A DNA stretch of 64,000 nt. It comes from Muricea muricata. Lineage: Eukaryota; Cnidaria; Anthozoa; Malacalcyonacea; Plexauridae. Under the pieces are notes generated by a model that did no database searches, had not been told where the DNA came from, and saw only the letters and a list, made by a program, of their open reading frames with translations. The stretch spans positions 2,911,179 through 2,975,178 of the forward strand of contig OY979717.1 of NCBI GenBank assembly GCA_963855995.1, in the 5' to 3' direction. Every line of letters begins with the position of its first letter. The stretch's first letter is position 1. Shown piece by piece: positions 1 through 63,957 of this stretch. The translations under genes were made by a program, and so were the position numbers.

Positions 1-1443
1 GTGTGTCATTCCTGAAGAAATCACAAATGACTACAATATTTGCAATATTTGTTGGTTCAAGATATATCTGGCACAGGGTTACGGTTTGGGTCAGGGTCAT
101 TTTATGCATGGCATAATAATTCCAATAAGTATTGGCATTATTAAACGTAACCAATAATTTTATTGGGTTACAACGTTCGGATTGGCAGTCCTATTTCGCA
201 AAATTCCCGCTGACTATCCCGAGCGCATGCTCATGCAAACTGTTTGTTTGTGTCGCCCAAACGAACAAGCGTGGCAAAGAGTTTTCCATACCAGAATTTA
301 TTTTTTATTCAGTGTTTAAACATGTCGCAGAATTATCATTTAGAAGTGTAATAGATAAATTTACAAATTGAATTTGATTTGGCCGGGAATTCGTAGGTAA
401 TAACAAGTGCCCACGACAGGGCTTGATTGTTTTCCCTGTTTTGACCGTCATTAATTAAACAACCTTTCCCCAGTTCATCTACGTTTTTTTATTACTCGTG
501 TACAAAAATATATGAGCACTTTTATTATTACATCGTGTGAACTGTGATGAGTTCTGAATAACTTTAGATCTGAGCAACTCGTTGTAGCAAGTCAAAAATT
601 TTCAATAAAACCTGTTATAATTTCTTGTGTTCTTTTGTTGCCTCAAAGCCTCTTCAACGTAAACAATCTAGCACTAGTGCACATTATGAAACGTACCAAT
701 GACAGTGAAAAACGATAAACAACAAAAAGCAACCTGTTCTTTAAGGAAAATATTGTAACAAAACACGTTTCAATGATCACCACAATAGTCGTTCCACTTG
801 AGAAGCTGGGCTAGTACGAAGCTGAAACAAGGTGCGTGAAAATATCTTTTTTTAATGTTCTTAAATTCTCTTTGTTCCTAAATGTGTTTATAAGTTGAAT
901 TAATCAACGGATGATATCGTTAATTGTAAGGAAATGTTAGGGTTAAAAGAAATAAAAATAACTTTGTTTTAAAATTTTAACTTGTTGCGAGCATGTGGTC
1001 TAGCAGACAATAGACTGATCTTGAAAGGCGCACTTTGCAAAATCGAAAATTGTTTTTTGCAACTGCACTGGAATATCTTAGTGTCATTGTATGGCACATT
1101 GGATATAAAATTTTGCCTTCAAAGGTTTGGCAATCACGGTAAGGCGTTCTGGGAGCTTTTTTGAATGAAAAGGACAATTCGAATTTTCCTTTTCGATCTA
1201 GCTTAACAATGATATACATCATGTCTTTGGTTGTTTAGTAACAACTTCTTATAGAACTCCTTAACTGCAACGGCAAGAATCAACAGACAATAGTATAAGC
1301 TATATAGTAAGCATGAACCAAACATTGTATACTAGTGTGACCTTCATTTGTATGCCGCTACCTCAATTGTAGACATTTCTAGCTCTGTTGGCACATACAG
1401 TGTGGAAGCCATTAACAATTTTTATCGGGTTTTTTGCAGGAAA
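1..1443. other. Upstream spacer and probable 5' UTR of the first minicollagen-like gene
   Basis: I see no coding exon here. The small open frames lack coding character and several begin at TTG or GTG. A polypyrimidine tract followed by an AG at 1438-1439 lies just upstream of the first ATG at 1444, so a 5' UTR intron probably ends there, as it does before the second minicollagen. The promoter itself cannot be placed. Confidence 0.5.
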
Positions 1444-2445
1444 ATGGAGATTAGAATTTCAAATTGCGTCTTTGTCCTTTTATTTTTTGTTGCGTGTGCG
1501 TGGGCTCTAAAGATCGGTGAGTATCGTAATACTAAAGAAACAATGACAATGTAACAGTTGTACACAATGTATCTCAGTTTCCCTTGTCAAGGTTTTAGTT
1601 TACCCTCCAATGTTCAAAGCGTTACAACAATTATAACACGTGTTTTTTTACCTTTTTTGTGTGTTATTAATATAATAATATTATATTGTAATGATTTTTT
1701 TAATATTTTGGTTAGTTTTATTACAATTTTACATATGACAGGAACATATTATGTTAGACGTTTCGTATTTTCGGTAAATTGAAATGTAATTATAGATTTC
1801 GTGAATGAAAATGTGACATTTACCCGGTAACATTTATTGTCGTGTCAAGAGAAACAACGATACACAGATGCTACTAGTACACATGTTCCACGCAATATAT
1901 ACCGCCCGGCTAGCTTAGCTAGCTCCTATCAAAGCTGCTTGTTTAGCTATCAAGATTCTCTCGTGTCTGTGCATGTTTTTTGCTAAAAGTTCTTGCTAGG
2001 TTTGAAAAGCAATAAAATCAAAATAATTTAGGGTCTGATACAGTAATTATTCCATTTTTTTATCTTCGCAGAAAAACGTTTCGTAGACTATAGTCCATTA
2101 CCTCCACCTCCTCCAGGCCCACCAGGTCCAGATGGCCCTCCAGGATTTGTTGGACCGCCTGGACAAGACGGTCCCAAAGGACCCCAAGGTATACAAGGAC
2201 CACCAGGTCCCCCAGGCCCACCTGGCCCTCCAGGAATGCCAGCTGTTCCTGCTGGACGTCGCAATGCAATGCCAGCACGAGCTCATTCGCCACTACCAAG
2301 ACGTGCAGCACCTCCTCCACCCCCATCGCCAATATATGGACCCCCAGGTCCTCCAGGCCGCCCTGGTCCTCCTGGACCCCCAGGACCACGAGGAGGACAA
2401 GGAGCACGTGGTGGAGCAGGACGTGCCGGGGCTCCTGGAAAATAA
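1444..2445 (+). CDS. Minicollagen-like protein without cysteine-rich domains
   Basis: Two exons, 1444-1516 and 2072-2445, joined by a GT-AG intron in phase 1, give 148 residues. Residues 1-22 are a signal peptide (hydrophobic core FVLLFF). A short propeptide ends in EKR, where E is the codon split by the intron. The mature chain then runs PLPPPPP, 14 Gly-X-Y triplets, a basic linker containing GRR and [11 protein letters not shown], and a second block of 12 triplets ending in GK. The order signal, dibasic propeptide, polyproline, short collagen matches cnidarian minicollagens, and 14 triplets is a normal length for them. What is missing is both cysteine-rich domains: the only cysteines are in the signal peptide. 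It could therefore not join the disulfide network of the capsule wall by the usual route. The next gene on the same strand, 3.4 kb downstream, is a complete minicollagen, so this is probably a diverged tandem duplicate. An AATAAA follows at 2669. The exon structure is well supported; the role is inferred. Confidence 0.85.
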
Positions 2446-2668
2446 ATGACCTGAATATCCTGGCAACGATTGTAGTATATTTAGTGTTCATGGCAAAAAC
2501 GAGCAGCTGAATAAGAATTTCATATGTGGCTTCTGTCATACAAAGCGGAATAGACTTTAGACAACCGAGGCCTTGAGATTTTTCATACTATAACTGATTG
2601 TTATTTGATATATAAACTTTACTTATGCAGTGAATGTACTTTTTTATATATTCAAGTGATATTAGAAT

Positions 2669-2674
2669 AATAAA
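2669..2674 (+). terminator. Putative polyadenylation signal of the minicollagen-like gene
   Basis: An AATAAA hexamer lies about 225 bases past the stop codon at 2445 in AT-rich DNA. Position and orientation fit, but no transcript end can be seen from sequence. Confidence 0.45.
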
Positions 2675-3004
2675 AGTAACACTTTGAATGCCTTTTTACA
2701 TTTTTTGGTGCTATAGATCTTAGAGCTAGGGCCTTATGTACGATTATAAACGTAGCAGCCAATGCAAACACTGAGAAAAAGGGGGTATGGAGAGAAGGAG
2801 ATTGTTGAACATAATTGCAACGTAATTGATTCATCAAAGCGTATAATTATTGGCCATGAACAGAGTGTTCTAAAAAAAGTGGAGTTCTGCATTCAAGTTG
2901 ACATCTTGCAAAGAATATTAAGCAATGAGGCTATAGTGTTTATATAACTGATTGAACTATCAAAACTGATTGAACTAAGAGTAATTTCCATAACTAGTAT
3001 CAGC

Positions 3005-3006
<2 letters not shown>

Positions 3007-3038
<32 letters not shown>
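3007..3038. repeat. (TAA)n microsatellite
   Basis: About ten uninterrupted TAA units. They sit next to the 3' end of the LINE fragment on the minus strand (3145-3429), where such tails are common, and probably represent its decayed 3' tail. Confidence 0.85.
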
Positions 3039-3144
3039 TTATTCTTATATAGCCCTATTTACAATTACAGATCAATAGCGCTTAACACAACATATATCCT
3101 GTTTACAATTCTATAAATTACAAATCTAAAATAGCAGTTTACTA

Positions 3145-3429
3145 TTATGTTAAAAATTGTTGAGTAAAAAGATAGGTTTTAAATGATTTCTTAAACTTCT
3201 CAATTTCAACTATTGTTCGAATGTCAACTGGAAGGCTATTCCATAACTGAGATGCAGCAGCATAAAACGATCTGCCACCCAATGTTAGAGGCATTTTCTC
3301 ACTCGGAGGTAGTAGCACAATACCGCCGTTGGATCGAAGACCGTAGGATGACTTGGATTTGACTTTAATCAAGTCTTGAATATAAGAAGGTGCTAGCCTG
3401 TGGATGGCCTTAAAAGCTAAGAGTAGCAC
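3145..3429 (-). pseudogene. LINE (non-LTR retrotransposon) C-terminal tail, 5'-truncated
   Basis: The minus-strand frame reads as the extreme C-terminus of a CR1/Rex-type LINE reverse transcriptase polyprotein: FKAIHRLAPSYIQDLI, then GGRSFYAAASQLWNSLP, then FKKSFKTYLF. The order fallen-helix, LWNSLP motif, FKxxLKTxLF tail is characteristic of these elements in invertebrates and fish. Only about 95 codons remain and no catalytic domain is present, so it is a 5'-truncated dead copy. A TAA-repeat tail lies at its 3' side. The exact clade cannot be assigned from this tail. Confidence 0.75.
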
Positions 3430-5865
3430 TTTGAAGTGAATTCTTGAATGTAATATTTTGGTTTTGGTGAATGTAATATTTTGGTTTTGTCCAAGCCTTT
3501 CTGGGACTCTGACTGCATGAACAAGATTTTTAAATTATATTTGTACGATGTAGTGAGACTCTTCTTCCTGTTCAGGCTTCAGATTCTCCTTTCTTAAATA
3601 ATTTTCATTTGATTCTGTATGTGATCTGGTTGCATAATCGATAAGCTGGGGCAAAACGTTAGACCTGCAGTAAAAGCAAATGCGAAGCTTGCGTGATCCT
3701 AGTTTTTAATCTTTTGCGGAGCTTACATTAACCTCTTTTCTATCACAGTCAAGCGAAAGAAATAGCATAAGTTCAGACTGAGGCTAAACTGATCATGTGC
3801 CATCTTTAGACCAACTTTTATGTAAACACACTCTACACCTTCACTGTGGCCAAAATGTGACCGTTTAAGGCAGGTCACCTCTTACAAGGCTAGTTTAAAT
3901 ACTAGGTGGTCAAGTTTTCCAAGTTTTTCAAGGTTATGCAAGTGGTCTCCCAAACCCTAACCTTAAGTCCAAACAAACACCCTAATACTAATCCCTAACC
4001 CTTGCCCTTACCCTGACCCTTGTTTTCAAAATTTGTCATAGAATGAAGCATTTTGATTGGAAACCACCAAGACCACCGCTTATTATTGTTAGCCAATCAA
4101 ATTACATCTTCTAAGAGGTGCGACTCACCTGAAATGTTTCGCTTTGACTAATTTGCCCCATGCTATCTAAACGATAGTTCGCAGTAACAAATATTTATCT
4201 TAAATCTATGCACACCAATACTCAATGCTCTTTCTGTGTCATACGTACATATCTGTACAATTGTATGTCTGTAAAGTCTTATTTCAAAACATTTTGAACA
4301 TGTCAAGATTCATCAAATAAAGTAAAAGGTAAACTACTTGCTCGACTTATTTATGCACCGGCATAAGTACAGCGTCATTTGCATGGGCGGAGGATTCGGG
4401 GGCTTGCTTATCCATGTATCCACCTATTGTCCAGCGAATTCCATTTGAAATCGACTAGATTTCAAAAGACATTTATTTGGCAGAAAGTGAACATATGAAC
4501 AAATAACCTTTCCTCTCCAATTGTCGCTACAGTTACGCCACTGTATTTAGGACTAAGGCATTCGACGTTGTTGTGTCGAATGCTTTATGATGATGCTGTA
4601 TTTAAACTGAATGGATAATTTTGGATAGAGACCATGCAGTTTCGATAATAACTAGTGATAGTCGATAAGCCCAATATATAGTAACGAGTTAGGTGCCACC
4701 ATGCTAGTGTTCTGTAACAGTAGATTGATTTATTGTCATAGTTTTAATCACAACTTTTCTTATCATCCACGGAATCTGTTCAATTAAAAAAATAAAATTC
4801 TTGTACTCACGAAACAGACATCTTCGTTGCTATATTTCTTTGCGCTGTGTTTATTTTACACCATGAATTTATTAATTTATCAAATATTATTGAATGCGCA
4901 ATGAATATTCAATAGTCTTTACTGCATGCTCGTATGACCTCGTCTTCATTTCGGCCTTCTTTGGTAACGCAGGCTCACACTTCAAGGCCAAGAACTCAAA
5001 CCATGGTACTAACCGCTTGCGCACGAAATGGGCATGCAAATTATCTACTATCATAGACAAAGCAAAGAAACTAGTCGTTGGAGTACAATTTCGTCGCCAA
5101 ATTCAGCTGACTTGCAATTAGGGCATAGAAACTCGAACGATCAAGTCCAATTCGAGTCCTTATATATTGATCGCACTTTATTGATCAGAAAGAACATTAA
5201 TCAAAAAGGTAAATTAATGGCGAAGTTTTTAAAGTGCTATCACAATTTACGATATATCAGAATTTACGCTTTAAATGTGATGTCTTGCGTCAGGATACCC
5301 AAAACACGTACATATGACGGACGTTCCAGTATTTATAGCTACTAATACAAATATCGGCGAAAAGCGACAGCAAAATTATTATTTCCCGACATACAGGGCG
5401 TTGTTTCGAAACGTTTATGAGTTCTAAGTTTCGTATATGAACACATTTATGAGGCTGTAAAGCTACCTGCCTCTCGCAGTTAATATTTTGTAAATAAATT
5501 TAGGTGGCGTTCTGTATTTAAAGACACGGTAGTAAGCATCACTTATCGTACGTTACAAAACAATGATACGTTTACTGCACAGACAAAAGAAACATTGGCT
5601 GCAACAAAGAGATTTCCTGTAGCACCTGACAAAACCACTTACTTATTTATAACATTTAAGCAGGCACCATATTGCAGTGAGTTCAAGCGTTCATCATTTA
5701 CCGTTGGTGTTTCGTATACGAAGGAGCTCAGAACTGATTCAGTAAGTTCATTCCAGCTAAAAATCTTTATTTGGTTCGGTTATGGATTTCACTTTCTATA
5801 CCTTGTTAGGTTTTTATTTGTTCATAACTTTTTCTTTCTTTTTCAGGTTAAGTTAGGAATCCAAG
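3430..5865. other. Spacer between the two minicollagen genes
   Basis: No exon is recognisable. It holds scattered degenerate CCCTAA-like words around 3950-4020 and a small hairpin near 4557-4585. At the right end a polypyrimidine tract and AG just before 5847 look like the end of a 5' UTR intron of the next gene, whose ATG is at 5866. Confidence 0.4.
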
Positions 5866-7959
5866 ATGAATTGGGCTCTTGTGGGCCTCTTTATCGCCGG
5901 TGTAATATGTCTAGGGGAAGCTAATATTATCAAGAAACGTGTAGCAATGAGGACGGAAAGTATGTATCTTGCAATATATCAATAATTTTGAATTTAAATT
6001 CAAATTTGCGCTAAAGTCTTGACATTTTCCCGAAGCTTTTTCGAGCGCAGCTTCAAGCGATACTAATTGAAGGTACCTGCTTCATTAGTTGCGAAACTGA
6101 AGATAGATGAATTAATTTTGGAATAAATTGCGATAAAGTTACAATGAAATAGAGATGAAATTAAGTCTACCAATTATATTTTCCGATTTAAACTTCGAGA
6201 TACAATCATTTTTCTCATGTACTCAAAGTTTCAAGTAATTTTATTCCAATCTTACGGATCTAATAAATAATCTCACAAATAGCAAAAACTATGCTTTCCT
6301 ATTTTATGGAAATTATTCTGTTGAGATTTTTATGGACACGAAATATGAATCAGCTAATTCAAGGCAGTAATTTTTAAATCAGAATACATGAATATGTATC
6401 CCAGCATCCTCTCACTCGTATAGAGAGGAAAGTATTAATCAAAGCGCCAAGTTTCTTTTAAGCTCTTCATCTTATTCCTTGACAAAAATATTAAGATCAA
6501 CCTACTCAGTATCTTTAATAAATGGCAAAAATGTATTTAATTACAAAATTACCTGCTAGTGAAAGAAAGTTTTAACCAAAAGTTGCAACATAATTGTAAA
6601 GAATCACAATTTTGAGTGTTTAGAATTTTGACAACTTGAAATTAACTAAAAATGGATGGGTGGTCAAGATAAATCGTTCACTTACGATTAGGTAAATTCT
6701 GGCTATGACAAAATATTACTGCAGATACAGTTAAAGCAACCAAGTACACAATGCGAAGCTGTCGTATTTGCCGGTGACAAATTATTTTTGCTAGTTTACT
6801 GCTAGAAATGAACAGTAATTTTCGTAAACACAGTAATTTTAAGTAGGAATTTCGCGGATTCATTTTTTTTATTTTCAACTGTAGTTAAACTGTCAATTCT
6901 TGCCGTTTTGTTTTGATAAGTACTTGCTGACCACCAGTTTCTTTGTATTTCCTAAGTAGACTGTGTTATTTTATGTTATGCTTGTTTTCTTAAAAGCATT
7001 TTGCTTTGAAAGCTTTTCTTTCTTGTGTAAAATCTTAAATACTAAAGGTCTTTCACAATAAACGCATATTAGTAGTTAGATCACCTAGGCGTATAAACTC
7101 AAAAACAATTGCAGCAAAAGCAGGTTGCATTTAGCACATTTTTAAAGCATATAATTACAGTGATCTTCGTTGGGAATATGTTTCAACAATTCGACTGTCC
7201 AATGAAACAGCGCCAGTGCCACTTAATTAAATGCACAAAAATCTACGAAAATACGTGATGATGTTGCAATGTAATTTAGTCATTTAGAATCAGTAATGTG
7301 TTCTAGACTTCCTTGAAACATCATGGCGCATCATCCGCCGTATGCTAGATTTCACTGAATAGTAACGGAAGTTGAATATGTGCCTAGTACAATGGAGCAC
7401 TAAGCCGTGATGTAATGCGCTATTGTTCAGTGAGTGTGAATATCGTCATTGAGCTGTTATTTTTTTAGGTGCTGTAGTACGAAGTCCAATCCCTAGCCCA
7501 TGTGGTGGTGGTTGTCCAGGCTCCTGTGCTCCAGCGTGCTCTCAAGTATGTTGTCGCCACCCCCCGCCCCCACCTCCCCCACCACTTCCACCTCCACCAC
7601 CACCACTTCCACCACCACCACCTGGACCTCCTGGTCTAGATGGCCCTATGGGTCTACCTGGACCAATGGGACCTGATGGACCTAAAGGACCACTAGGCCA
7701 CCCTGGACCTCCAGGACCTCCAGGACCACCAGGACAAGCCGGTGCCCCCGCAGGACCAGGCGGACGTGATGGACCTCCTGGACCACCTGGACCACCCGGA
7801 CATCAAGGACCTCCTGGCGATCCAGGTATAATGGGACCTCTTGGTCCTCCCGGACCCCCGGGTAACCCTGCTCCACCAGGACCACCTCCTCCATGCCCTC
7901 CAGTGTGTGCTCACACCTGTATCCGAGCTTGCCCAGCACCATGCTGTCATGGTCGTTAG
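5866..7959 (+). CDS. Minicollagen, nematocyst capsule protein with canonical N- and C-terminal cysteine domains
   Basis: Two exons, 5866-5959 and 7469-7959 (phase 1 intron), encode 194 residues. Residues 1-19 are a signal peptide; KKR at 23-25 is the likely propeptide cleavage site. The N-terminal cysteine domain has cysteines at 43, 47, 51, 55, 59 and 60, exactly CxxxCxxxCxxxCxxxCC. Long proline runs broken by leucines follow, then 27 Gly-X-Y triplets interrupted once by a single alanine (GAP-A-GPG), then PPPP and a C-terminal domain with cysteines at 174, 178, 182, 186, 190 and 191. In the family, trimers assemble in the nematocyst vesicle and the cysteine domains reshuffle disulfides to harden the capsule wall. 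The collagen block is about twice the 12-16 triplets usual for Hydra minicollagens. The start is the only ATG that gives a signal peptide; a 5' UTR intron seems to end just upstream. An AATAAA overlaps the bases after the stop (7960) but is too close to be the likely poly(A) signal. Confidence 0.96.
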
Positions 7960-9163
7960 AATAAACCCAGAACGAAATATCGAGAAATACGTGAACAGAA
8001 TCCAGAGGGAGCAAAATACAATACATGTATTTTTTAAACATGGACAGTTTCAAGACTATATGTATTGCTTGTTAGTTTATATTAAGCCATTCTGAATATA
8101 AAATTTCTGTACTAAAAAGAAAAAAATATAAGTGTTGAGTGTGTCAAAAATTTTATTTAAAACATGATTTGTAGCCATATACTATTTACATTTCTTTAGC
8201 TTTCACAAACTGCATGTCTGCAATGATTAGCATTTAACAATCTTTTGCGCGATTATTAGTAAAGAAAATAGATGCAGAAATACATCGCTGATGAATTGCG
8301 CTGAATGAGGACAAAGACTTTAATTGTTCAACCAAAACTATTTACAATACGATCATTGATTTAAACGTCCTCCAAAGATATGACTTTCGTTTGTAAAACG
8401 AATGGACAGTCAGTTTAATTAGGTCAAATCCTATAGTCAAATCGGTGCCTTTCTAGTCTTTGAGATCTAGCTTATTTCAAAATGACTGTTTCGCACAACG
8501 AAAATAATCTACATTATTATTTATTGAAAATAATTCAAAAGTTTTGATTGGTTATGGGCGGTGGATGAAATCGTCATACCGCTTGGTAGTTGCCCAAATT
8601 TAGAGTTATGTTATCAGACTATTGAAAAGACACATTTGACGTTATGACGTAATTTGTTCGGATATTGAACACACATATTCCACATCATGACGTCACACTA
8701 ATTTATGCTGTTTGTACCAAATGCAAGGAAATATAATTGGCTTCTTCAGTAGCTTGCGTCTTGTTTACAAGTCAAGCGTTTATTTTGGGTCCGATATGAA
8801 TACAAATAAATAATAAAACAATCGTTGAATTCGGTTCTCGAAAGTTATATCTGAACCTCTATCTTAATTAATAATTCCTCAAATCGTACTCGTCTTCATT
8901 CAATAATTGTTTATCATTTATTCGGTTTGTGCACTGCCTACCGTGTCTAGCCATATTTTCGTATTTCCTGTCACGTGTCATTAGCTACAACAGCGGACAG
9001 CTTGATATAATACCTTGAACTCGTGGTCAAAAAGTGAAATTTTTCGAAAACAAACAAAGGAGTGAACTATTACAAATTGACGAACGAAAATATAAAAGTA
9101 TGCAAAACCTGAAAAAATTACACTCTAATGACAGTTCATGGGACAATAGTCCCAATTAGATAT

Positions 9164-9212
9164 GATAGACCTAAAGGACCACTAGACCAGCATGCAGCTA
9201 CAGGACCACCAG
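9164..9212 (+). pseudogene. Possible degraded minicollagen fragment
   Basis: The first 26 bases match the collagen block of the minicollagen exon near 7675 with two mismatches, including 17 identical bases (acctaaaggaccactag), and an ACAGGACCACCAG tail follows. It encodes RPKGPL plus a disrupted Gly-Pro stretch in a frame that soon leaves the collagen pattern. With the two real genes just upstream this looks like the remains of a third tandem copy. The match is short, so chance similarity between Gly-Pro codons is not excluded. Confidence 0.4.
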
Positions 9213-11387: not shown

Positions 11388-20643
<9,256 letters not shown>

Positions 20644-45544: not shown

Positions 45545-48500
45545 CTAACAGTACTGTGTGCGTTGTTCGCGCCAAGTAAATAATGGATTTTCAAACACTT
45601 GAACATCTCTCTCAATACCAATGCACGCCATTTCTGCAACAGGATAGGTCCTTGTTTCTGCCTTGCACTTGTTAAATACTTTCCCCAAAAACACTTGCAA
45701 ACATCGACGATACGTTGTACTTGTAACGTAATAAATTACAGGATTTATAACTGATGTAGAGAGTGCAAATATCACTGTAACACTGTGCCATTTTGTTCCA
45801 ATTGTCACCACATCAAACTTGTATAGAAGATAATATACTTGATTTGGGCTCCAGCATGTTAGAACAACAAGTGACGTAGCTGCGCACGTGTTTAGCAGCT
45901 GTCTTTCATAGTTGGGTCGTAGGCTGCAGCGAACGTTTTGATCATGCCATTTTCTGTACAACGAACATAAAACCAGAACTAGTACCAGTGATGGTGCGAT
46001 AAATTTGAATGAAATTTCTACAAATGCCACAATTTTTCTCGTTTGGTAGTCTTTGTACGACCATTGGCAGGGTGTTTGAGCGTTCACATCCTTACTTGGA
46101 CTCATTTCTGTTAAATGTGGCGCATTTGTGAATAAGCCGAGCACCCAAATGATAAAAACACAGGCTTTTACCTTCAATGAAGATATGACAGTTCTGTATT
46201 TAAAAGGATATCGTACAGCAAACCATCTTTCAATTGATAAAAACATCACTGTATACACAGATACAATACCAAACAAAAATATCATAAACTGGGAAAAAAG
46301 AACACGACAGTATATTTCTCCCGCTATTCCATCTGCGGAGTCCACCAAATTTACTGGGAGGATTAGAGCTGGTGTAATTACTAGTGCAATGCCTAAAATG
46401 TGCAAATGAAGAACGTGGTTAAAATTACAGTCCCCATACACGGGGCCGTTCGCCGTAGTTCGAAAATGTGGCTAGAAAACAAATTTCATTAAGCATGTCG
46501 TGGAACTGAGGTATCTTTGCAGAACATAACTTTTTCAAACACGGGGAGCTCGAATCTGAAAAGTTGCCGCTCCTCTGACCCGCAGTTTTTTCATAAAATC
46601 CATTTTAATTCTCACTCTTTCAACACGCTTCAAATAATCTCCCGCCATTTTGAATTCTTCAATATTCCGTTTGCAATCGCTCAGAATGATGATTATTCTG
46701 TCCCAGATCCCTCAACTCGTGGTAAATTGTCATTCTAACCGATGGAATTGCTAAAATCATTCACTTTGTAAACACATGGCTTCTTACAAAGCTGCTAGTC
46801 ATGTTTGTGTTGTGAAGTCCATTTCCCCGGCAAATGCAGAAATAAAAGAGCTATTAAAAGGGATATATCAGCAAAAATTATTGAGACATAAGAAAACAGT
46901 GCTTAAACCTATTTTTATCATATAAAAAACTCACAGAAGTCGACGATTCAGGTAATATAAGTAAGCTTGAGAGACCTAAAACCACCCTTGCCAATGCTGG
47001 TCGAAAACGTTTGTCAGAGGAAAACGTCGGACAACCAGGAAAGTATAACTAATAATAAGTTATCAGCAATGTTGTGCTTAAGAGCCAAGTATAACTGCAG
47101 CAAAAATGTTGCCTTTGGCTTTGACCAAAAATAGGTAAAATCAATAATAGTCCACCTTCATCACGCATTCATTAACTGTACATAACCTCCCAGGATAAAT
47201 GATTAGTTGACAATTTTTAAATATCAGAGAGTTTTGCAACAATTGTTTTCATGTATTCATTAAGCGTTAACGCTTGAAACTTCTGTTTTAAATGTTTTGT
47301 TCCTCACTTTCCAATAATATTATTAGAACTACAAATAAAATATATATTGTCTTCAATGTGTCCAGTTACTTCAGTGCACAAGAAACATAAGGTCTGAAAC
47401 ACCAACAGTAACATGCACTAAAACACTTATCAACCTAAGTTGAAAATAAACCGACAGAACAATCTTCAATAAAGGGGGTTTTCATCCAAACCTCCCATAA
47501 AAGAGACACAATTTATAGCTCACTAAGTGACCATTAATTTCACTAAGAGGCTGTTCAATATATATAAACAAGGTGACAAAATAGTGCGCCGAATATCGTT
47601 TTTACAATGGAGTGTTATTGCAGCAGTTGCGATATCACTGGTGGGGTAATGCCCCCCAGTTACAAGTTGCTAGAGGGGTTTTCTCAAGCCAATGCCTAAT
47701 TAAATTTTCCTGGAAGGTATCTAGAAGTGAAAGGTGTTTCCAACATGTTTCCAACCTATGTGTTACATTAGAATCACATATACAATTGATAATAACGACT
47801 GATTTTAAAAGGGGAATTGTTGGTGTTTCTTGTGCACATTGACCCTAATAACAACTGATTTTAAAAGGGGAATTGTTGGTGTCCCTTGTGCACATTTTCT
47901 TCTACTTTTGGCAGGCGAAGTGAAAGCTCTAGCAGGCGTCTTGTTCCTTTTTATCAAAATAATCGAGTTTTTTTTTGCATCAGAAAAAACCAGTAGCAGC
48001 TCTACAGTTCTATGCTGGCTATGAAAAGCATGCTATTGTTATACTTTTATCATTACATTATCCCCGAAATCAGAAATCGCTTTTAATAGTTGCTGTCTGA
48101 GATACTATGTTGCATTGTGACAACTTCCATTCAAGGTAACCCAGATTGAAAAAAGCCAGATGGAAATGTCATATCTGTGATGTCTAAAGCCCCAGGCTGT
48201 TTACAGATTGAGCAAATTTAGGGAAAAACATTTGAAGATGGATAAGGACAATTAATCTATTACCTTTTTCAGAACTGGAAATAGAATGAATTTGTCCGTT
48301 GCTTTCCTATTACAAACGTTTTCGTCCAGCATTGGCAAGGATGGCTTTAGCTCTCTCTTTAAAGGTTACTTGTTATATAGTAAACCTGTCTGAATAGTAG
48401 ACTTTTGCGAGTTCTGTTTATGATAAAGACGTATGTAAGCACTGCTTTATTATGTCTCAAAAATTTTTGCTAATATCCCTTCTAATTTCTCCATTTTTGC

Positions 48501-58200: not shown

Positions 58201-61200
58201 TTCAATTCAATTTCCGAGTTTTCTTCAAAACCTTCTCGTATGTCTCTGACAATGTCAGGCTGCAAGTAGATCGGGTTTATCCAAGAAATTAAAATTTCGT
58301 CCTAAAATATTCCAGGAAAAAACTGGTTAAAATACATTTAAATTTAAATATTCTACATTCTTTGGGAGTTGTTATTTTAAATCAATTTTACTATTTGTGT
58401 CATTTAGCATGCGTTTAGCATGACAAATTTAGCATTCAAAAGAAATTTTAAAGTGAAACTTGTGAAACGTATGCGTTATTCATATACGTATTGAAATTGA
58501 TAAGTGCTTTTTAAGCAATCTAGTTCTAACGTACTTGAATTTGAAATTACTCTATCAAGCCGCGTCATGTCGTTATATCGATTGTTATATGTTTTACAAC
58601 ACATTTTATACTCTTGAGCATCATGAAACCAATCAACTCAATACAAAATGTGTCAGCAGTTTCAGCTACAACTAATATAGGTTATACAGTAATTGCCCTC
58701 CGGGGCCAATTGCTTCCGGCGCTCCCTACACAATCGCCCATGCATTTTTCCCGTTTCTAAGGGACTGGACATTAATTACAGGGGAGAGGACTGGTGCAAA
58801 ATGGGAGAGGATCAACATTTTTTGTGGAATGGAAAAGGAGGTAGGGGGCAGATAATTTTATGCGAGCAAAAAGAAGAGCATTAAAGATGCCATGTACCAT
58901 ATACAAATGTATTTTCATGTCCAAATTAAAAAGAATAATTTTTTCAATAGGTTAAATACCTAGTAACACCAAAGGCTTAGTACAAATATATATTATAACA
59001 TATTAAACAGGAAGTATTCAATATTATTAGGAATACATCCTTTGACTGGCCTACTTTCTTTCTTTTCAGTTCAAACAAGGTAGTAAATAAACTTCCGGGT
59101 AGGGAGTGGGGGAGGGTCAGTGTAAACTCTGCAAAACTTTAGGGGAGGGTCAGGAGAAACTTGTACACGGTATATCCCACTTGCACCAGCCCTCCTCCCT
59201 GTAATTAATGGCCAGTCCCTAACCTCGACAAGAAGCGGAAGTTGTGTGGCTGGTGGCAGTTCTTTATGAGGAGATGGTCTTTCGACTGGCGGACCATGAA
59301 ACCAACCACTGACTGATAATCTTGTTTTATCTGACAACATCTCTGATACCTGCAGAGAAAACAAACGAATGTTGGGCAAGAAGACATAAACTGCGTCCTT
59401 CCAAAATTTTCAGACTAACCAAAACTCGATGTGTTCATCGTTGCAAAAAACACAACATGGGGGCGATATTGGGCTATGCTCAGAGAATTTATTTGCATAG
59501 AGCTTTCCTCATAGGAGACTAGGGGAGGAGGTTGGAGCAAAAAGAAAGAACTTTTGACAAGATTCTGTAAGATATGCTTTTAATACCGACCCCTCCCAGT
59601 GATGGTCTTTTTTAATGAATTTCCTTACAAACTCAGAGCACTGATATTGTAGGCCTAGATTTTGAAGCTGTTTATCTTATTACAGGTGATATGTATTTTA
59701 TCAAACTGCAACAGTTGAAATTGTATGTAACGGAATATTTACCTAATATCAACTACATAAACTCTTACTTTATTTAATGTATATTACTTTGTCCAAACAT
59801 ATTTTTTATTTATAGTTCAACTTCAACCGCTTACTATTCTTGATGTACGAAAAACTATTTTTCGCTCTTTAATATTTTTCTTCTTTACAATGTGGAGCAC
59901 AAATATATACTCAATATGCTTATTAACTAACATATCAGGGCAAAATTGCTAAATAGTGCTCAGGATTAATAAACAAGATAGGTAAAACTACTGCATAGTT
60001 ACTAAAACGTAACTTCAACCATGTATTGCTCGGTAGTTACACGTTAAATGCTTTCACTGTCATATGGTTGTAAGAGGATCGTTTCTTTCTTCGCGTATTT
60101 TTCAACATGAATTTCTTCCAATAGCACATCACTAACGTCATCATCTTTCTCGACACTTTTGGAACGTGAATACCTGTCAAAGAGCCATTCCTTGGCTTTC
60201 TTCACAACTTCGAGCGTAGGTTTGCCATCCTTAACCTCGTCAAGAATAGCTTTAACTTTTCGTTCCCCTTCCTTTTTGGCAAGAATTTTAGCCTCGGTCT
60301 TAAATGTTGAAATTGCAGTTTCCGCTTCAATCCTTTCGTAGTCGCAAACAACTGTCCGTATAGATTCTTGATCATTTAAAAAACAGCATTTGTTAATGAA
60401 ACTATAAATCAAGGACAGTATTGCTGATATAAGAAGCATAGACCAAGCTATAATTGAAGAAAGTCTCTGCATTTTAATCGACTCGATAGAGTCATTAGGG
60501 TTATTACCAATAGAGAAACAAACAAAATAATTGGTAGTGGCAAAAGTAAGAATAAGCCACGCAAGTGCCACTAATGCTGACTTCATCAAGGCATGACAGG
60601 TAGCACGACACACGACGACTCGGTCAACCTTTCTTCGTCGGAAACAACTAGTTACGGAATCCCAAAAAGAGTTGCTCATCATCAGAGTTATCGAGAATAA
60701 ACACAAAGCAGGAGCAAATAAAAACATTCCGCCATAAAGGGCATATCCTTCGTTAGGGCAGTTGTAATATGTCGTGTTTTCCAACAACTTTTCCAATGCC
60801 CACAAGCCAAAGATTGAAATTAATGGCTTTAATGATTTCTTTTGCGTCGAAGAGAATATTTGCTTCTTAGCTAAGTCGATAAGTGAACTGGCCATTGTTG
60901 AAATGATATTGTCGTAGTTTGTCAGTTGCAAGAATTTATAAATCATGAGTAAATACTGAGAAAATGAAAACAAAAATGAAACCGGAGGAGTAAAGCCAAA
61001 ACTATATAAATACCTATCATCATATCTCACATGTGCTCCCACATATTATGGAAAGCCATAGCTGTCTTAAGTGATAAAACGTCCTTTCATTAGGTGCTTT
61101 ATACATTATATACGGTGCTTTAAACATGACATGCGGTGCTTTGAGTATTATACGCGTTTCTTTAAACATTATATGCGGTGCTTTAAACATTATATGCGGT

Positions 61201-63957
61201 GCTTCGAGCATTATATGCGGTGCTTCGAGCATTATATGCGGTGCTTTAAACATTATATGCGGTGCTTCGAACATTATATGCGGTGCTTTAAATATTATAT
61301 GCGGTGCTTTAAACATTATATGCGGTTCTTCGGGCATTATATGCGGTGCTCTGAACATTATATGCTGTGCTTTGAGCATTATACGTTTTATCACTTAAGA
61401 CAGCTATGGCTTTCCATATTTCATTATAAATTAATATGTTGGCAGGTATATCGTGGATGTTATCTTGTAACGCAACTATATAAGTCACTTTTTGCGTATA
61501 TAGGAAGAACATTCATTTGTTGATAACAATATGATCTGCTCGCTTCCTGAATCTATCTCTTTGGCTATATGCGAATCATAATGGTCTTGCATGGGAATTC
61601 ACTCGCTCTCATTCTGCATGACGAAAATTTTTATCGGAGTTCATATCCGTCAAAACATAGGATATTAGGATCTTGATTTCTCTGATACGTTCACGACAAA
61701 TAAATTTACATTTTGTTGGTATATTCAACAACAAATTTAAAGTAATTTCTCTGAAGCATTGTTACAGTAATTATATTTACTGTCTTTTATTTCAATGAAG
61801 AAAACGACGATCGATTGATTTTCGTTTTTACATACTGTATTTTATTTTAATCAACCTCATAATTTTTTAAGTTTAGTAAAATGAGCAGATTTTGAAATAT
61901 GACGGTAGATCATGCACTTTGAACCCTGGCTACTGCTATTTCGCGAACTATTTACATGCACGGCCAAAACACAACACACACTGTCAAAACACAACACACA
62001 CTACAAAAACACAACACACACTACCAAAACACAACACACACTACCAAAATACAACACACACTACCAAAACACAACACACACTACCAAAACACAACACACA
62101 CTACCAAAACACAACACACACTACCAAAACACAACACACACTACCAAAACACAACACACACTACCAAAACACAACACACACTACCAAAACACAACACACA
62201 CTACCAAAACACAACACACACTACCAAAACACAACACACACTACCAAAACACAACACTTTCATGACATACTTGTCTTCTTTGAGGCTGGCTCAGATCCTA
62301 CATGACAGATAGAATTCAATGCCGCCAGGTGGGGGGTTGCTTGTCTGAATCATTGAGTCGGTTTAAACCGAGACAACACGTCAAATGCGTGCGCTACGCG
62401 CGCGAGCGTCACGCAAACGCAAAATCTTTTAATTTCACGCGTGTGTTTGCTTGCTTTTCAGCAGGGAAAAGTTTTGAGAAAACATTCAAAACTGCAAACA
62501 ACATTGATATTTGGACCGCCTGTGGCAATATTGCAATCTTTGCTATCCACACGTTCATACTTCATGTAGTTTTTTAATTAACATTTGTATTTATGTGTGT
62601 TGTGTTTTGGCAGTGTGTGTTGTGCCTTGTTAGTGTGTGTTGTGTTTTGTACTTGTTGGAGTACAATCAGTCCTTAAATTTATAACACTTTAAAATTACG
62701 TATACACAATACTAAGAATTACCTGATGAAAGGAAACTGGAGTGACCTCAAAGAAAACTAAACTATTCCACTCTGGAACTATTGATTTCACTATTTTATC
62801 TGGTTGACCAAACTCTATATTAAGAAACATTTATTTTTAAGGTTATGAAAATTGTTAACACTATGTGCAAATTCTGTAAAAAATCATGTACAGTTACACA
62901 GGAAGAATCATTTTAGCACAGAGCGCTTACCATCAATATCAAATAAATCAAGTGAACCTTGAAAAAACAAAATAAACATGTCCATTTCTGGGATAACTAA
63001 TACAAAATTTTTTTAATTTTACAGGCTTATTTCCGGACGAGTCCCTGATAGTTTCTCTAATTGGCTACAATAGTCAAAACATTATTTCTTAGTACGAGCT
63101 AAAGCTATCTCCCTTAAAATCCGTAAATGCATGATGTAATCATTTTTGCAATTAAAATATACATTTACTTCAAATCAATCTCACGACACAGTAGATGTCT
63201 TAAACTTAGTATACTAGCGATTCTTTCTAGACTGTGTTTTATACATAGTACTAGCGACTTCGCGTTCCGGACTAGCGATTTTTCTTTTAAGATCCTTGCT
63301 GTGAGATCAATTGAAAATTACATAGTTGTATAATAAGTGCTACTCTGGTTTTGTCAAATGAATAAAATCACCGAACAAAGATTACATTCACGACCCAACG
63401 TTTCGACACTCCGCTCTAATGTCTTCATCAGGGGTGGTCTGATGTTGAAACTCACGACCTTATATGCTGTCAAGGTGACGTCATCTACCAACAAGATGTA
63501 AATACTCTTTTGGTAAATGACTTCCGTCATCCCTATTTAGCCGGGCCCTTGTGCCTTAAATAGGGATGACGGAAGTCATTTACCACAAGAGTATTTACAT
63601 CTTGTTGGTAGATGACGTCACCTTGACAGCATATAAGGTCGTGAGTTTCAACATCAGACCACCCCTGATGAAGACACTAGACCGGTGTGTCGAAACGTTG
63701 GGTGGTGAATGTAATCTTTGTTCGGTGATTTCATTCATTTAACAAAACCAGAGTAGCACTTATTATGTCGGATTATATACCTGGTTGCGACATAGTCACA
63801 AATTTCAGTTCGTTACTTAGTTGTAGTTACTGATTCATCTACGAGCGAGCCACCGAGAGATTACCTCCATCTTTCTGAGTCCATGTAGTTGGGACAAGAT
63901 AAAAAATGTAGGCAACACGTCTTCCCTCAAGCTCATCATCATGACAAAGAAGAACAT
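55268..63957 (-). CDS. OGFOD1: OGFOD1-type prolyl hydroxylase, 3' part (5' exons outside the window)
   Basis: Ten exons on the minus strand: 63957-63865, 62957-62931, 62814-62723, 59349-59224, 58301-58188, 58008-57929, 57632-57440, 56784-56643, 56208-56150, 55444-55268; phases agree and give 366 residues to the stop. Matches to animal OGFOD1 run throughout: [20 protein letters not shown] (HxD iron ligands), [13 protein letters not shown] (distal His), [12 protein letters not shown] (2-oxoglutarate Arg), [37 protein letters not shown], an acidic linker, [20 protein letters not shown] and [20 protein letters not shown]. The family enzyme hydroxylates a prolyl residue of ribosomal protein uS12 (RPS23). 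About the first 150 residues lie to the right of the window. All catalytic residues seen are intact. Introns host a nested gene and several repeats. Confidence 0.95.
58758..59222. mobile_element. MITE whose end forms the splice donor region of an OGFOD1 exon
   Basis: Left TAAGGGACTGGACATTAATT and right, inverted, TTAGGGACTGGCCATTAATT; similarity continues inward through acaggg and ttgcacca-like text to about 47 bases. The right end lies next to the exon end at 59224, so that the donor GTTAGGGACTGG is largely element sequence. No clear target duplication. Confidence 0.7.
60044..60946 (-). CDS. CALHM-like (calcium homeostasis modulator) channel, intronless, nested in an OGFOD1 intron
   Basis: From the ATG at 60946 the frame encodes 300 residues; this start gives [15 protein letters not shown], which matches the amphipathic N-terminal helix of CALHM proteins (IFQFLQSN-like). 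A longer frame to 61042 begins at GTG and is not preferred. Four hydrophobic segments lie near residues 39-55, 70-90, 120-140 and 163-185. [20 protein letters not shown] corresponds to the CALHM CxC...PA segment between TM1 and TM2 but has one Cys where the family usually has CPC. The long charged C-terminal half ([20 protein letters not shown]) is helical as in the family. CALHMs form large-pore plasma membrane channels for ions and ATP. The gene lies on the same strand as its host intron (59350-62722). A TATA-like box is at 61001-61010. Membership is inferred from pattern and moderate similarity. Confidence 0.75.
   Translation of the reverse strand: MIYKFLQLTNYDNIISTMASSLIDLAKKQIFSSTQKKSLKPLISIFGLWALEKLLENTTYYNCPNEGYALYGGMFLFAPALCLFSITLMMSNSFWDSVTSCFRRRKVDRVVVCRATCHALMKSALVALAWLILTFATTNYFVCFSIGNNPNDSIESIKMQRLSSIIAWSMLLISAILSLIYSFINKCCFLNDQESIRTVVCDYERIEAETAISTFKTEAKILAKKEGERKVKAILDEVKDGKPTLEVVKKAKEWLFDRYSRSKSVEKDDDVSDVLLEEIHVEKYAKKETILLQPYDSESI
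61001..61010 (-). promoter_or_regulatory. TATA-like box upstream of the CALHM-like gene
   Basis: The minus strand reads ATTTATATAG about 55-65 bases upstream of the preferred ATG at 60946. Position fits a core promoter with a short 5' UTR. In AT-rich DNA such words also arise by chance. Confidence 0.4.
61047..61418. mobile_element. MITE with perfect 35-bp inverted ends around a minisatellite
   Basis: The left end tatggaaagccatagctgtc continuing ttaagtgataaaacg is repeated as an exact inverted copy at the right end. The interior consists almost wholly of 21-base tandem units. It ends about 100 bases upstream of the CALHM-like start codon. Confidence 0.85.
61128..61395. repeat. 21-bp minisatellite inside the MITE
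   Basis: About 13 units of 21 bases, typical form gcggtgctttaaacattata, with drift at the ends. The units are in frame on both strands, which explains long spurious open frames over the array. Confidence 0.9.
61966..62263. repeat. 20-bp minisatellite (caaaacacaacacacactac)
   Basis: About 15 almost identical units of 20 bases. Because 20 is not a multiple of three the array is open in all three forward frames and gives three spurious ORFs. No spacers between units, so not a CRISPR array. Confidence 0.95.
62597..62656. repeat. Short inverted copy of the 20-bp minisatellite
   Basis: About three units of the reverse complement (gtgtgtgttgtgttttg), facing the main array across about 330 bases of GC-richer single-copy sequence. 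Confidence 0.8.
63330..63766. mobile_element. 437-bp near-perfect palindrome (foldback element)
   Basis: Arms of about 210 bases read outward-in: ataataagtgctactctgg, then gattacattcacgaccc, gtcaaggtgacgtcatctac and aaatagggatgacgg-like text, all mirrored on the other side; the centre is a GC-rich loop of about 20 bases. Each arm holds a CTGATGA ... GAAAC pair around a short hairpin. No open frame. It lies in the OGFOD1 intron before the exon at 62957. Confidence 0.85.

Follow-up and report, generated by a model that had tools for sequence, protein, structure and literature searches.

Minicollagen cysteine domains are held to stabilise the trimer, to polymerise minicollagens and to harden the capsule. 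The question raised by this locus of Muricea muricata is whether a gene for a minicollagen-like chain with no cysteine in its mature part (gene A) is a working gene, and what its product could do next to a complete minicollagen (gene B) encoded in the same window, the whole stretch of 64,000 bases analyzed here. On balance we favor reading gene A as a live paralogue of gene B whose secreted product, minicollagen-like but free of cysteine, is a cnidocyst protein with a trimer that would stand outside the disulfide network. How the gene is built, its coding signal, the lack of cysteine, the charge and the similarity to gene B are observed; expression, processing, trimer formation, location and binding mode are what we infer.

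Gene structure and coding signal

The two-exon reading of 1444-2445 proposed in the initial annotation held up, with exon 2 starting at 2072 (Table 1). The coding parts of 73 and 374 nt join to 447 nt and translate into 148 amino acids and a stop. When ranked by a simple home-made consensus score among all plus-strand GT and AG sites of the window, the donor at 1517 falls in the 99.25th and the acceptor in the 99.8th percentile. In-frame GC of exon 2 at the first, second and third codon positions is 0.855/0.790/0.185, with a GC content of 0.314 in the intron, 0.328 and 0.347 in the flanks and 36% in the whole window. Since such a contrast between codon positions is unlikely in sequence that is not maintained as protein, we regard exon 2 as coding. 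A similar pattern was observed over the whole of gene B (0.785/0.744/0.251), and both genes have the same preference among glycine and proline codons, GGA, CCA and CCT being the commonest. Synonymous codons differ along the repeats of both genes and tandem-repeat scores within exon 2 of gene A are low (43-52), which together argue that this exon is not a fresh expansion at the DNA level.

Strong candidate acceptors are located close 5' of both start codons, with exon edges at 1440 for gene A and 5847 for gene B (98th and 99.9th percentile of AG sites, respectively), and both genes may therefore have a 5' non-coding exon. The best-scoring donor upstream of the gene A ATG by the consensus score is at 832. 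An open frame of 175 residues antisense to exon 2 (2060-2587, minus strand) very probably results from the codon bias of that exon.

Table 1. Positions of gene A, gene B and the decayed collagen block within the window
Feature	Position	Strand	Description
Possible 5' UTR exon edge, gene A	1440..1443	+	candidate acceptor 1438-1439 just 5' of the ATG; consensus scores only
Coding exon 1, gene A	1444..1516	+	signal peptide 1444-1506, then propeptide start LKI; phase-1 donor at 1517
Intron, gene A	1517..2071	+	555 bases, phase 1; acceptor AG at 2070-2071
Coding exon 2, gene A	2072..2445	+	propeptide end EKR and entire mature chain; stop 2443-2445
Mature N-terminal segment, gene A	2080..2115	+	12 residues with Tyr31 and polyproline; gene B has here the N-terminal cysteine domain and a longer polyproline
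Collagen block 1, gene A	2116..2241	+	14 Gly-X-Y triplets by pattern, the last GMP
Hinge, gene A	2242..2337	+	32 residues, arginine-rich, net charge +5, two RR dipeptides, second polyproline, Tyr113
Collagen block 2, gene A	2338..2442	+	11 triplets and GK, net charge +5, no acidic residues
Coding exon 1, gene B	5866..5959	+	signal peptide, KKR-ended propeptide and a few residues more
Coding exon 2, gene B	7469..7959	+	complete minicollagen; collagen blocks of 14 and 13 triplets with one alanine between
N-terminal cysteine domain, gene B	7501..7554	+	CX3CX3CX3CX3CC
C-terminal cysteine domain, gene B	7894..7947	+	CX3CX3CX3CX3CC
Decayed third minicollagen-type collagen block	9152..9212	+	80% identical to gene B 7663-7723; several glycines replaced

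Anatomy of the gene A protein

Translation of the joined exons bore out the signal peptide, EKR propeptide, polyproline and 14 Gly-X-Y triplets noted initially, and the full order is signal peptide, KR-ended propeptide, polyproline, 14 triplets, hinge and 11 triplets followed by GK. The predicted signal peptide spans 21 residues (MEIR...CAWA) and its hydropathy peaks at 3.2 over residues 8-18; its cut was placed by this hydropathy together with the A-X-A rule, which we take to apply here. The definition of minicollagens includes a signal peptide followed by a propeptide of 4-20 residues that ends in KR (PMC7981951, PMC3145756), and gene A, with its predicted signal peptide and the six-residue propeptide LKIEKR, has both. 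Similarly, its first block of 14 triplets lies within the 12-16 central Gly-X-Y triplets of minicollagens, the block of 11 being additional. Minicollagen polyproline stretches flank the collagen domain on both sides; in gene A, PLPPPPP immediately precedes block 1, PPPPP follows it beyond a basic segment of 23 residues, and none is present after block 2.

The mature chain of 121 residues has nine arginines and a net charge of +8. Hinge and block 2 together carry +10 and no acidic residues, as compared with +1 for gene B after its first block. Tyrosines at residues 31 and 113 are each close to the start of one collagen block, and the mature lysines are at 60 and 148. Collagen was the only Pfam match in the gene A protein, and likewise in the gene B protein.

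Search for cysteine domains

Both cysteines of the gene A protein reside in the signal peptide, leaving none among the 121 residues of the mature chain, as claimed in the initial annotation. Neither the N-terminal cysteine domain that defines minicollagens, CX3CX3CX3CX3CC, nor the C-terminal one is present. A six-frame scan of the 64,000 bases yielded the six-cysteine pattern twice and a looser four-cysteine pattern four times, all within gene B and none elsewhere. Among conceivable cassette exons of 18-300 nt placed 30 nt or more inside either end of the gene A intron, eight would preserve the frame, none with minicollagen cysteine spacing; two of them contain three cysteines, and the splice scores of both are middling. 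With stops read as X, the three forward frames of 1-1443 and 2446-5800 matched no Pfam family up to an E value of 0.1. In nematogalectins a galactose-binding lectin domain follows the collagen domain; none turned up in the gene A protein or in these frames of 2446-5800.

The hinge was also compared with the cysteine domains of gene B. A remnant of the C-terminal domain was not supported (protein p = 0.077 over 5,000 residue shuffles; DNA p = 0.88 over 5,000 codon shuffles), and none was detected in the comparison with the N-terminal domain (protein p = 0.44). Of the proposal that gene A has lost both cysteine domains, the absence thus stands but not the loss, since with no remnant detected a lost domain and one never possessed look alike.

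Gene B and the minicollagen cluster

Gene B encodes 194 amino acids, has a phase-1 intron and, judged by its sequence, is a complete minicollagen, in agreement with the initial annotation, and belongs to group 1: both cysteine domains are present, and the mature chain has 12 cysteines, no tyrosine and a net charge of +2. In its C-terminal domain a valine precedes the second cysteine and a proline follows the fourth, residues reported as favoring the C-type fold (PMC4195985). The suggestion that in gene A a second collagen block takes over the position of the C-terminal domain was right about the block and loose about the replacement, as gene B has a second block (13 triplets) as well as a C-terminal domain.

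The two genes are arranged head-to-tail on the plus strand with 3.4 kb between their coding regions. In block 1, 16 of the 28 X and Y residues are identical in register, a value matched by 149 of 100,000 triplet shuffles in a test that covers this one block only, and the in-register offset was the best of nine tried for all identities as well as for non-proline identities (3 versus at most 1). At the DNA level, 131 ungapped bases including the polyproline-collagen junction are 69% identical, a score of the kind that collagen composition inflates. The KR site is encoded by exon 2 in gene A and by exon 1 in gene B, so the phase-1 introns are at non-identical places, which counts against a simple duplication.

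The stretch at 9152-9212 reached a local score of 62 versus 26 for the best among 269 other 200-base stretches (10,000 to 63,800), and appears to be a dead third copy of a minicollagen-type collagen block. With genes A and B, this fragment forms what looks like a small minicollagen cluster. Such clusters have been reported in several cnidarian classes including Anthozoa (PMC7981951), and the three cloned Nematostella minicollagen genes are on different scaffolds (PMC3145756).

Alternative readings of gene A

Similarity and position bear directly on an unlikely alternative, namely that gene A lies beside a minicollagen by chance and that its product is a small secreted protein of the "collagen-like" type from gland cells, endoderm or some other non-stinging tissue. 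Nematostella has short collagen-like proteins without further domains that are broadly expressed over cell types (PMC12549020), and gene A has no cysteine domain and no Pfam match other than Collagen. Moreover, out of three Acropora mini-collagen-like lectins a single endodermal one is known, and its repeat is interrupted (PMC2629781); the gene A collagen is interrupted too, and a minicollagen-like repeat alone is thus no guarantee of cnidocyte expression. However, gene A has a KR-ended propeptide and a polyproline-14-triplet core in register with gene B, and it adjoins both gene B and the decayed third block.

Highly improbable, in our judgment, is a larger gene of which the gene A frame shows a single isoform, with a cysteine domain added by alternative splicing, either by joining exon 1444-1516 to 7469 or through a donor inside exon 2. 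Hydra minicollagen clusters are said to have a common signal peptide (PMC3145756), and the introns of genes A and B are both phase 1, the join of gene A exon 1 to gene B exon 2 staying in frame to the end; yet the product would be without a KR site, and gene B starts from a separate signal exon that encodes KKR. As for an internal donor, exon 2 contains 16 GT sites, of which the one at 2189 is a moderate candidate (89th percentile, phase 1), but exon 2 closes with a clean stop and gene B is the nearest cysteine-domain pattern within the window. Least credible of all is a decaying minicollagen duplicate that is open by chance: the dead block at 9152-9212 shows that copies here do die, but whereas that fragment lost several glycines those of gene A are unbroken over 14 and 11 triplets, its splice sites are good and its codon-position GC contrast is as strong as that of gene B.

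Database matches and other features of the window

Among solved structures, 86 distinct sequences matched gene A with E values of 1 or less. Most of the best 60 of these 86 are named collagens or collagen peptides; a few carry other names, for example a hyaluronoglucosaminidase, a complement C1q chain and a spike-collagen fusion. Best placed was 8zxl ("spindlefibril"), whose match breaks down into 29 weak repeat segments of at most 12 bits each and does not indicate kinship. Gene B matched 29 sequences at E up to 1e-5, mainly collagens. Of 47 pattern stretches in viral contigs, three loci on three contigs (L001-L003, 3001-3204) match the collagen part of gene A (residues 36-101, about 40% identity), presumably as collagen-like repeats, and in prokaryote genomes 0 of 596 did; the viral and prokaryote collections are not meant to hold animals and are silent on gene A orthologues.

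Elsewhere in the window, a minus-strand frame of 129 residues (3145-3534) without a Pfam match at E up to 0.01 has what we take to be a resemblance to the tail of a retrotransposon reverse transcriptase, and a histidine-rich stretch on the plus strand (15350-15560), read by eye from the DNA, presumably resembles the loop of a zinc transporter. Two minus-strand frames correspond to a rhodopsin-family receptor (45545-46471; Pfam 7tm_1, E 2.8e-25) and a calcium homeostasis modulator channel (60044-61045; Pfam Ca_hom_mod, E 2.7e-18). Long open overlapping frames at 61020-61398 and 61880-62312, with repeats approximating "FKAPHIM" on the minus strand and another repeat on the plus strand, are probably tandem-repeat DNA.

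A possible role in the cnidocyst

As a live paralogue of gene B, gene A would be expressed in the stinging-cell lineage; once its signal peptide and KR-ended propeptide had been cut off, the chain would enter the cnidocyst vesicle. Three such chains could zip into a short rod without a cysteine knot, aided by the GPP runs in each block. In the Hydra model, the helix is held to nucleate before the C-terminal cysteine domain associates through disulfides; this domain steadies the trimer after nucleation and links trimers later (PMC4863159). For a chain without this domain, nucleation through GPP runs would be possible, while joining the disulfide net would not. The gene A rod would stay outside that network, packed in the wall, thread or matrix through triple-helix and polyproline contacts, and its basic hinge and block 2 would bind cyst polyanions such as poly-gamma-glutamate and chondroitin, both of which nematocysts contain (PMC9205923).

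Tyrosine- or lysine-based links might perhaps also hold the rod. The initial annotation had argued that a cysteine-free member would have to be non-crosslinked, a necessity that does not follow: mature capsule minicollagens of Nematostella resist reduction, from which the authors deduced further covalent links (PMC3145756), so "no cysteine" need not equal "not cross-linked", and Tyr31, Tyr113, Lys60 and Lys148 of gene A could be candidates for non-disulfide links. The capsule, tubule or matrix roles listed in the initial annotation may still apply. On dityrosine in nematocysts, passages of PMC6989532 concern artificial gels only.

A basic, cysteine-free collagen rod may fit a softer, polyanion-rich setting, and our first guess for its site, offered tentatively and with somewhat more doubt than confidence, is the thin-walled spirocyst rather than the nematocyst. 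Spirocyst walls are described as thin, less dense and remaining accessible to antibodies (PMC3145756), and as thin and serrated (PMC9935875). Spirocysts also hold cysteine-bearing minicollagens, NvNCol-3 and NvNCol-4 by antibody (PMC3145756) and NvCol-5 by expression (PMC12549020), which means that a thin wall by itself does not require a cysteine-free chain. A more far-reaching version, which we think quite unlikely, would have gene A form wall or thread with no part at all in the disulfide network, with tyrosines 31 and 113 and the arginine-rich half replacing the twelve cysteines of gene B in a redox-independent lattice, polyanion-bound or tyrosine-linked, that would partly explain the resistance of anthozoan capsules to reducing agents.

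If gene A does work as a cysteine-free paralogue beside a complete minicollagen, the pair would be a natural control for the cysteine-domain model. It would allow testing whether a Gly-X-Y rod alone trimerises and enters the cyst, and would help to ask which non-disulfide links anthozoan capsules use. As a spirocyst protein, gene A would join the features that separate a soft, sticky cyst from a piercing one.

Comparison with known minicollagens and their relatives

Canonical group 1 minicollagens (gene B, NvNCol-3 and Hydra NCol-1) share with gene A the signal peptide, the KR propeptide and a polyproline before a block of 14 triplets, and gene B also has the phase-1 intron near the signal peptide. 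In contrast to them, gene A is without both cysteine domains and has a basic hinge of 32 residues and a basic C-terminal second collagen block. Departures from the minicollagen structure do occur, as 16 of 21 Hydra minicollagens are said to follow the canonical one (PMC4195985). Like gene A, NvNCol-7 is of minicollagen type with its collagen split into more than one block, and the single alanine that parts the blocks of gene B is an interruption as described for that protein; NvNCol-7 differs from gene A in keeping both cysteine domains and in a collagen part of about 1000 residues in 25 blocks (PMC12549020). Nematogalectins and the Acropora mini-collagen-like lectins resemble the gene A product in being secreted and in combining a signal peptide with a Gly-X-Y domain, and in nematogalectin-related genes an intron follows the signal peptide (PMC4195985, PMC2629781), but these proteins have a lectin domain and gene A does not.

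Because the defining cysteine domains were tested for and are absent, we do not class gene A as a minicollagen. Among the literature matches listed, no title or abstract opening describes a cysteine-free minicollagen. A minicollagen relative with an incomplete set of features has a precedent in four Nematostella proteins, which were named "minicollagen-like" in 2025 (PMC12549020). Compared by text description only, these are, like gene A, short collagens with some but not all of the minicollagen features. Gene A, having some and not all minicollagen sequence features, falls under the usage of that name, and from its sequence it is likely a further member of this recently named group, of which minicollagen-like-3 and -4 are expressed in spirocytes (PMC12549020).
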